DNA of 64,000 nt from Rossellomorea vietnamensis (lineage in GTDB: Bacteria > Bacillota > Bacilli > Bacillales > Bacillaceae_B), in assembly GCF_025398035.1 (NCBI RefSeq), contig NZ_CP104558.1:2956501-3020500 (forward strand), given 5' to 3'. The notes below the pieces were generated by a model, which saw nothing but the letters and a program-made list of their open reading frames with translations, had not been told where the DNA came from and did not search any database. Of this stretch, positions 61,421-63,207 are shown in pieces; the stretch's first letter is position 1, and every line of letters begins with the position of its first letter. The translations under genes were made by a program, and so were the position numbers.

Positions 61421-61861
61421 ATGTTGAAAGTGATCCGCCAGGCAACGAATGAGGACATTCATGAAGTCGTGGCCTTCTTGACGAAAGCAGGATTGAGCAC
61501 GGAAGGCATTAAACATAGCATTGATTGTTTTTTAGTAGTGGAAGATGAGGAAAACCGCTTGATCGGGACGCTTGGAATCGAGGTGCAGGGGACGGTCGGC
61601 CTTCTTCGATCCCTCGTCGTCACATCTTCATTTGAAAGTGAAGAGTTATTTGCTCTCTTTCAGGAGATTTTAAAGCTTGCGAAAGAAAAGGATCTGAAGC
61701 GTCTCTATTTGATTTCCAACCGGAAAGCATCCCTCGCGTTCTTTGACCTGCTGGGTTTTCAACAAGAAGCAGATCCTGTTGTGGATGAGCTGGAGAACTT
61801 CATTCATGCAAAAAAGTTATCCACTGTGGATAACTGTATCACCATGAAATTGGATTTATAG
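61421..61861 (+). CDS. ywlB: GNAT family N-acetyltransferase (YwlB)
   Basis: A 146-residue GNAT protein: IRQATNEDIHEVVAFLTKAG, RLIGTLGIEVQGTVGLLRSL (strand before the CoA site), then LARLYLISN-like LKRLYLISNRKASLAFFDLLG. No clear Q/RxxGxG CoA loop is seen, so activity needs proof. Substrate unknown. Its 3' end contains DnaA boxes (61817, 61825). Confidence 0.82.
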   Translation: MLKVIRQATNEDIHEVVAFLTKAGLSTEGIKHSIDCFLVVEDEENRLIGTLGIEVQGTVGLLRSLVVTSSFESEELFALFQEILKLAKEKDLKRLYLISNRKASLAFFDLLGFQQEADPVVDELENFIHAKKLSTVDNCITMKLDL

Positions 61862-62234
61862 ATTTTTCGACAAGGATTTTGTCGGGGAATTCAGGACTGA
61901 ACCATTCTCATAAAAATGGTTCGGTTTTTTTCGTTTGCAATTCGACAAAATACGAGAAAGCGGTAACTATTTCTTTTTTCAGAATTATTCACACCATCCA
62001 CAGGTTTATCCACAATTTTCAACAAGTTATACGCAGTTTGTGGATAATACTTGAGAATTCAAGGTGTTTCTTTTATACTTTCAAAAGTATAGGAACTCGT
62101 AAATTCAGTATTCGTAGTTAAAAAGTAATGAGATTTAGCTTAGTTACATAAAGGTGGATGACATAGATGATGAAACATTGGGTTGTGGAAAGTGATGTGG
62201 ATAAAAACAAAAGTTATCCACAAATTGTGGATGC
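61817..62234. other. DnaA-box cluster (ywlB-ywlC)
   Basis: Perfect TTATNCACA boxes: 61825-61833 (-), 61985-61993 (+), 62006-62014 (+), 62039-62047 (-), 62196-62204 (-), 62214-62222 (+). One-mismatch boxes: 61817 (+), 62028 (+), 62226 (-). The cluster covers the 3' end of ywlB, the 305-base gap and the start of ywlC. B. subtilis has a DnaA-binding cluster at the same place. Confidence 0.92.
61909..61931 (+). terminator. Terminator of ywlB
   Basis: AACCATT, nine-base loop, AATGGTT, then CGGTTTTTTT. Confidence 0.65.
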
Positions 62235-63207
62235 AGCGAAGATTCTTCAACAGGATGAGGTGGTTGCGTTCCCGACAGAGACGGTTTATGGACTGGGGGC
62301 GAATGCCACATCGGATACTGCGGTGGAAAAAATCTTCAAAGCAAAGGGCAGGCCGTCGGATAATCCACTGATTGTCCACATATCAAATAAAGAGCAGTTA
62401 GAGGGTCTTGTCGAAGAGATCCCGTCGGATGCTTCGACACTCATTGACGCGTATTGGCCGGGGCCACTGACAATCATTTTTAAAAATAAGGAAAACGTCT
62501 TTTCCGAAAGGGTGACGGCTGGACTCGATACTGTCGGGATCCGGATGCCGGACCATCCCGTGGCGCTCTCCATTATCGAGGCAGCGGGACTGCCGATTGC
62601 CGCTCCGAGTGCGAATCGTTCGGGTAAACCGAGTCCAACAACGGCTCAGCATGTGATCGATGACCTTGATGGTCGGATCGCCGGAGTGGTGGACGGCGGC
62701 GAAACGGGAGTAGGGGTTGAGTCGACGGTGGTGGATTGTACGGGAGAAATCCCGGTCATTTTGCGTCCAGGCGGTATCACGAAAGAGCAGCTGGAAGAAG
62801 TCGTCGGGAAAGTGGAAGTGGACCCTTCCTTGAAAGAAGGCAAGGGAGCCCCGAAATCACCCGGGATGAAATACACCCACTACGCCCCGGATGCCCCTGT
62901 TTATCTTGTGGACGGAACGAAGGAAGATGTGCAGCGATTGGTGGATGAGAAAAAGGCAGAAGGGCTCAAAGTCGGGGTCCTGACGACGGAGGAGCGAATG
63001 GATTGGTATCAGGCTGATCTCATCCTGTCAGCCGGACGCCGGGATGACCTGAGAACAGTGGCACAGCATCTCTACGACACCCTGCGCGCTTTTAATAGAA
63101 GTAATGTGGATATTATTTTTGCCGAGATGTTCCCGGAAGAAGGAGTCGGGCTTGCGATCATGAACCGTCTTCAAAAAGCTGCGGGTTACCGGGTAATAAA
63201 AGGATGA
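62167..63207 (+). CDS. ywlC: L-threonylcarbamoyladenylate synthase (Sua5/YwlC)
   Basis: First step of t6A tRNA modification: makes threonylcarbamoyl-AMP from Thr, bicarbonate and ATP (346 aa). YrdC domain: VVAFPTETVYGLGANATSD, KAKGRPSDNPLIVHI, GRIAGVVDGGETGVGVESTV; then the Sua5 C-terminal domain starting PKSPGMKYTHYAPDAPVYLV. ATG at 62167 or 62170. The start overlaps DnaA boxes. Confidence 0.96.
   Translation: MMKHWVVESDVDKNKSYPQIVDAAKILQQDEVVAFPTETVYGLGANATSDTAVEKIFKAKGRPSDNPLIVHISNKEQLEGLVEEIPSDASTLIDAYWPGPLTIIFKNKENVFSERVTAGLDTVGIRMPDHPVALSIIEAAGLPIAAPSANRSGKPSPTTAQHVIDDLDGRIAGVVDGGETGVGVESTVVDCTGEIPVILRPGGITKEQLEEVVGKVEVDPSLKEGKGAPKSPGMKYTHYAPDAPVYLVDGTKEDVQRLVDEKKAEGLKVGVLTTEERMDWYQADLILSAGRRDDLRTVAQHLYDTLRAFNRSNVDIIFAEMFPEEGVGLAIMNRLQKAAGYRVIKG

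Follow-up and report, generated by a model that had tools for sequence, protein, structure and literature searches.

The region around the junction of ywlB and ywlC in Rossellomorea contains a dense cluster of DnaA boxes, and most of the order Bacillales has retained it. In all likelihood DnaA binds here and represses ywlC and, jointly with other clusters, holds back free DnaA, as judged by analogy with B. subtilis. What was known as a site of a single model species turns out to be a trait selected across a bacterial order, and the long-standing doubt on the role of the B. subtilis clusters becomes directly testable. In a literature search of limited scope we found no prior report of conservation beyond B. 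subtilis. New by comparison are the order-wide enrichment of boxes, the geometry of core and promoter, the codon selection inside the ORF and the inventory of clusters in this genome.

The ywlC cluster and the other clusters of the genome

The window is the whole stretch of DNA which was analysed, 64 kb long. It has 10 perfect boxes, against 1.3 on average and at most 6 in its dinucleotide shuffles. Six perfect copies of TTATNCACA are found within 398 bp (61825-62222), on both strands. The region 61817-62234 takes in the 3' end of ywlB, the intergenic sequence and the first 56 bp of ywlC; all features are given in Table 1. The initial annotation had described six perfect boxes in about 420 bp in both orientations, and these are confirmed. 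It had also counted three near matches: two boxes with one mismatch do lie in this region, but the third is either a one-mismatch box at 61780, outside it, or a site with two mismatches.

Table 1 Features of the ywlB-ywlC region (positions in the window) and clusters of at least three perfect boxes in the genome (genome positions)
Feature	Position	Strand	Remarks
ywlB	61421..61861	+	ORF; GNAT-family acetyltransferase; Pfam Acetyltransf_1, E=1.4e-4; 3' end overlaps first boxes
DnaA box TTATCCACT	61817-61825		One mismatch
Palindrome TTATCCACTGTGGATAA	61817-61833		Two DnaA boxes with a common centre base; within the coding end of ywlB
DnaA box	61825-61833	-	Perfect
Predicted intrinsic terminator of ywlB	61893..61928	+	14-pair stem and T-tail; consensus scan only
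DnaA box TTATTCACA	61985-61993	+	Perfect; next box 21 bp on; invariant in 16 Rossellomorea
DnaA box TTATCCACA	62006-62014	+	Perfect; opens the conserved core; invariant in 16 Rossellomorea
Core TTATNCACA-N12-TTATNCACA-N3-TGTGNATAA	62006..62047	+	42 bp; single copy in its own genome
DnaA box TTATACGCA	62027-62035	+	One mismatch; second box of the core; perfect in several other genera
DnaA box TTATCCACA	62039-62047	-	Perfect; faces the 62027-62035 box; 3 bp between its end and the -35 hexamer
Predicted sigma-A promoter of ywlC, TTGAGA-17-TATACT	62051..62079	+	10/12 consensus matches
ywlC	62167..63207	+	Threonylcarbamoyl-AMP synthase, Sua5/TsaC, tRNA t6A synthesis; Pfam Sua5_yciO_yrdC 2e-63, Sua5_C 4.5e-43
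DnaA box	62196-62204	-	Perfect; inside the ywlC ORF; encodes VDK; codon use points to DNA-level selection
DnaA box	62214-62222	+	Perfect; inside the ywlC ORF; encodes YPQ; codon use points to DNA-level selection
dnaA promoter cluster	dnaA at 2,842,060		3 boxes, and two between dnaA and dnaN
jag-mnmE cluster	2845924		3 boxes
Cluster upstream of rlmH	2883398		5 boxes
ydiF-tsaD cluster	2553766		4 boxes; between convergent 3' ends
ywlC cluster	3018325		6 boxes
sda-yqeG cluster			3 boxes
uvrB cluster	C1:3478557-3478930 (L077:6558-6931)		8 perfect boxes in 374 bp; amidase gene-uvrB interval; densest of the genome
PTS EIICB cluster	C1:2220377-2220422 (L076:6378-6423)		3 perfect boxes in 46 bp, upstream of the gene

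The genome has 4,519,151 bp in one contig. It belongs to a Rossellomorea near R. vietnamensis, and its YwlC is 98% identical to that of L003. A genome-wide list of boxes, compiled from pattern searches, provides the count which had been proposed as a check: 211 perfect boxes, one per 21.4 kb; the reversed pattern is found 97 times. When 211 boxes are placed randomly, 2,000 trials give a maximum of 3 per 420-bp window, and the cluster is well above chance. In the same genome the uvrB cluster is denser still. Several consensus boxes are thus present within a few hundred bp, above chance and outside oriC, as in the non-oriC DBC of B. subtilis type. The site had been described as far from oriC, which is not the case: dnaA is found at 2,842,060, and its distance from the cluster, at 3,018,325, is about 175 kb, which makes 3.9% of the chromosome. 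In each replication arm the isolated DnaA boxes favour one strand (59:28 and 26:54), a bias which G/T-rich leading strands would predict.

The ywlC cluster is one of eight with at least three perfect boxes in the whole genome. Six of the eight match strong DnaA regions of B. subtilis (PMC4447404), the exceptions being uvrB and PTS EIICB; a counterpart of the B. subtilis ywcI-vpr cluster was not found among them. Four non-oriC clusters lie beside genes for RNA modification (mnmE, rlmH, tsaD and ywlC), two of them for t6A, an observation made post hoc. This association may partly reflect position, since mnmE is within the conserved neighbourhood of oriC.

Conservation in Bacillales

Our order-wide sample has one genome for each of 80 genera of Bacillales, with 560 bp around the start of ywlC. 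In it we have found 282 perfect boxes, when 2.8 are expected. There is at least one of them in 75 of the 80 genera and at least three in 65. The conserved position suggested by the initial annotation is borne out by these 75 genera, and the ywlB/ywlC pair itself is identified by its ORFs and Pfam domains. Around the ywlC start of the Clostridia and Chloroflexi loci compared there are no boxes.

The specificity of this enrichment was controlled at tsaD, rlmH and uvrB in 30 genomes of Bacillales. Boxes are abundant downstream of tsaD (102 against 0.7 expected) and upstream of rlmH (90 against 1.3), while on the opposite sides of these genes they are at the level of chance: 1 against 0.9 upstream of tsaD and 0 against 1.2 downstream of rlmH. 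Upstream of uvrB there are 13 boxes against 0.9 expected, but 8 of the 13 come from the genome under study; a congener has 2 and the other 28 loci have 0-2. These counts indicate that the ywlC, tsaD and rlmH clusters are order-wide and that the uvrB cluster is lineage-specific. We have rejected uvrB as a conserved DnaA site: only 4 of the 30 loci have any box, and only this genome has at least three. The uvrB gene of E. coli is also reported as regulated by DnaA (PMC6015884).

The core of the cluster is itself widespread. When up to two mismatches are allowed, 192 of the 397 Bacillales genomes searched have it, and 67 of the 132 genera; a reversed pattern is found in none of the 397. In 19 of the 30 loci inspected it lies 69-126 bp upstream of ywlC and in the same direction. 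Of the remaining 11, the nine examined belong to other families and lie beside the gene that precedes rlmH, not at oriC. About half of the Bacillales genomes do not have the exact core: their boxes are kept in other arrangements only. The loci L109 and L110 have a YwlC 90-94% identical to that of B. subtilis. They show the same core geometry, with a TTG-17-TATACT promoter 3 bp past the core. The N12/N3 spacing of the core and the promoter offset are common to Rossellomorea and L107-L110, which are tentatively assigned to the B. subtilis group by their YwlC.

The promoter of ywlC is a consensus prediction, backed by conservation: it is near-invariant in an alignment of 16 Rossellomorea sequences. 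A box abuts it, with its end 3 bp from the -35 hexamer, as in a DnaA-repressed promoter. This geometry is also found elsewhere. Facing box pairs are present in 51 genera, and in 16 of them a promoter of type TTG-(16-18)-TATA begins 2-4 bp past the pair, when shuffles give a mean of 0.27.

In the alignment of the 16 Rossellomorea sequences the spacers diverge, but little or nothing changes in the boxes at 61985 and 62006, in both boxes inside the ORF and in the -35 and -10 stretches. Five of the sequences carry one or two changes in the box at 62039, which the remaining 11 have in exact form. The palindrome TTATCCACTGTGGATAA is present in all 16; only its centre base varies, A or T. Two other near-invariant sites, 61865-61873 and 61941-61949, contain TTCGACA and are similar to Spo0A boxes. 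We do not claim Spo0A boxes in the cluster: across the 80 genera their enrichment at ywlC is weak, 13 against 5.0.

Inside ywlC the choice of codons follows the boxes. In the N-terminal VD[N/K], 48 of 49 genera use GTG for the valine, against 26% outside this site in the gene (P=3e-27), and in YP[Q/H] the proline is CCA in 29 of 30, against 34% (P=6e-13). These P values overstate independence, as the genera are related, but the contrast is large. GTG and CCA are the choices which spell a DnaA box: selection is on the DNA, not on the protein. In several genera without boxes the N-terminal peptide drifts.

Proposed role and alternative explanations

By analogy with B. subtilis, DnaA would bind at this site in Rossellomorea and repress ywlC. 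It would oligomerise on the facing pair which immediately precedes the -35 hexamer and on the boxes in the first 56 bp of the gene; RNA polymerase would then be blocked from both sides of the promoter. The boxes touch the -35 on one side and lie inside the gene on the other, which fits repression from both sides, but such flanking occupancy is less certain as a mode of repression than repression itself. Together with the other clusters of the oriC region, the site may keep a share of the DnaA of the cell off oriC and delay initiation. Titration is also less certain; it is plausible as a shared effect of all clusters. The DnaA of this genome has domains I, III and IV, with the helix-turn-helix of domain IV present. 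Its alignment with B. subtilis DnaA (8btg) is full-length, and a stretch of 41 residues through domain IV is identical.

The cluster might instead be a pure sink for DnaA, at ywlC only incidentally and with no regulation of ywlC transcription. The conserved ydiF-tsaD cluster, placed between convergent 3' ends, has no promoter to repress, and the phenotype of the joint deletion in B. subtilis concerns initiation (PMC5295017). However, the spacing between box pair and promoter is fixed in 16 genera, the ywlC promoter of Rossellomorea hardly varies, and in B. subtilis DnaA appears to repress ywlC (PMC4447404, PMC12112137). The conserved promoter spacing and the selection at synonymous sites of ywlC speak for a specific function of the cluster, beyond that of a sponge. 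We find a pure sink rather unlikely. A more elaborate proposal is that the arrangement box-N12-box-N3-inverted box, found at ywlC and beside rlmH across Bacillales, is a nucleoprotein device which changes the state of DnaA, similar to datA/DARS, placed mostly beside genes for RNA modification (ywlC, tsaD, rlmH and mnmE) and coupling initiation to the translation apparatus. We consider it improbable.

Another reading takes the inverted boxes mainly as hairpins of the ywlB-ywlC RNA, for termination or attenuation, rather than as DnaA sites. The facing pair extends to a longer inverted repeat with a T-tail in 10 of the 51 genera, where part of the conservation could serve termination, and the scan flags two minus-strand hairpins at the cluster. 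But ywlB has a separate predicted terminator (61893-61928), boxes are also found single or direct at 21-bp spacing, and the exact 9-mer is kept in both arms, beyond what mere pairing requires. An Rfam search of the cluster gave no family above threshold, so that a riboswitch or other known RNA is unsupported. For this genome we have rejected a role in termination only, and as a general explanation hairpins are very improbable. Dual use is possible in other genera: in L146, L167, L182 and L202, for example, the facing pair also makes up the stem of a hairpin which has a T-tail and resembles a terminator, which suggests that the pair serves both as terminator of ywlB and as DnaA site.

Boxes clustered in an intergenic region also recall a second or relic replication origin. 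This is extremely improbable, and we have rejected it on the location of dnaA and the trend of GC skew: the site lies 175 kb from dnaA and the clusters there, the cumulative GC skew keeps the same direction through the window with no turn at the cluster, and there is no replication gene at the site. As two of the six boxes are within the coding sequence of ywlC, the cluster might finally be due to chance or be a by-product of a conserved N-terminal peptide. To this we give practically no weight: random placement never gives more than 3 boxes per 420 bp, the codons chosen track the box and not the amino acids, and the peptide drifts in several genera without boxes.

Comparison with known systems

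A candidate of similar working is known from E. coli. The datA and DARS sites are also clusters of DnaA boxes outside oriC which affect the availability of DnaA; they are further marked by IHF or Fis sites and by a change in the nucleotide state of DnaA. B. subtilis has no IHF, according to a review (PMC13220808).

In B. subtilis a strong DnaA-binding region with 9 sites follows ywlB and precedes ywlC; its apparent Kd is 0.25 uM with ATP-DnaA and 0.45 with ADP-DnaA (PMC4447404); the initial annotation was right in placing a DnaA-binding cluster at this gene pair. It had also given this cluster a part in the control of initiation. Deletion of all six non-oriC clusters does cause early initiation (PMC5295017), but at the site itself repression of ywlC is better attested: DnaA appears to repress the gene (PMC4447404), and PywlC-lacZ drops when DnaA is doubled (PMC12112137).

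The rlmH (yydA), tsaD (gcp)-ydiF, mnmE (trmE)-jag and sda-yqeG clusters of B. subtilis all have counterparts in the Rossellomorea genome. They differ from the ywlC cluster in their genes, and the tsaD boxes lie between convergent 3' ends. The cluster studied here is the orthologue of the B. subtilis ywlB-ywlC region, as judged from sequence, and with this orthology the main inference of the initial annotation holds. The two are alike in the gene pair, the many boxes and the presence of boxes both upstream of the promoter and inside the start of the ORF. They differ in the distance from oriC, 175 kb in Rossellomorea and, by the position which PMC4447404 gives, about 0.4 Mb in B. subtilis, and Rossellomorea has in addition an upstream box at 21-bp spacing and the palindromic pair inside ywlB.
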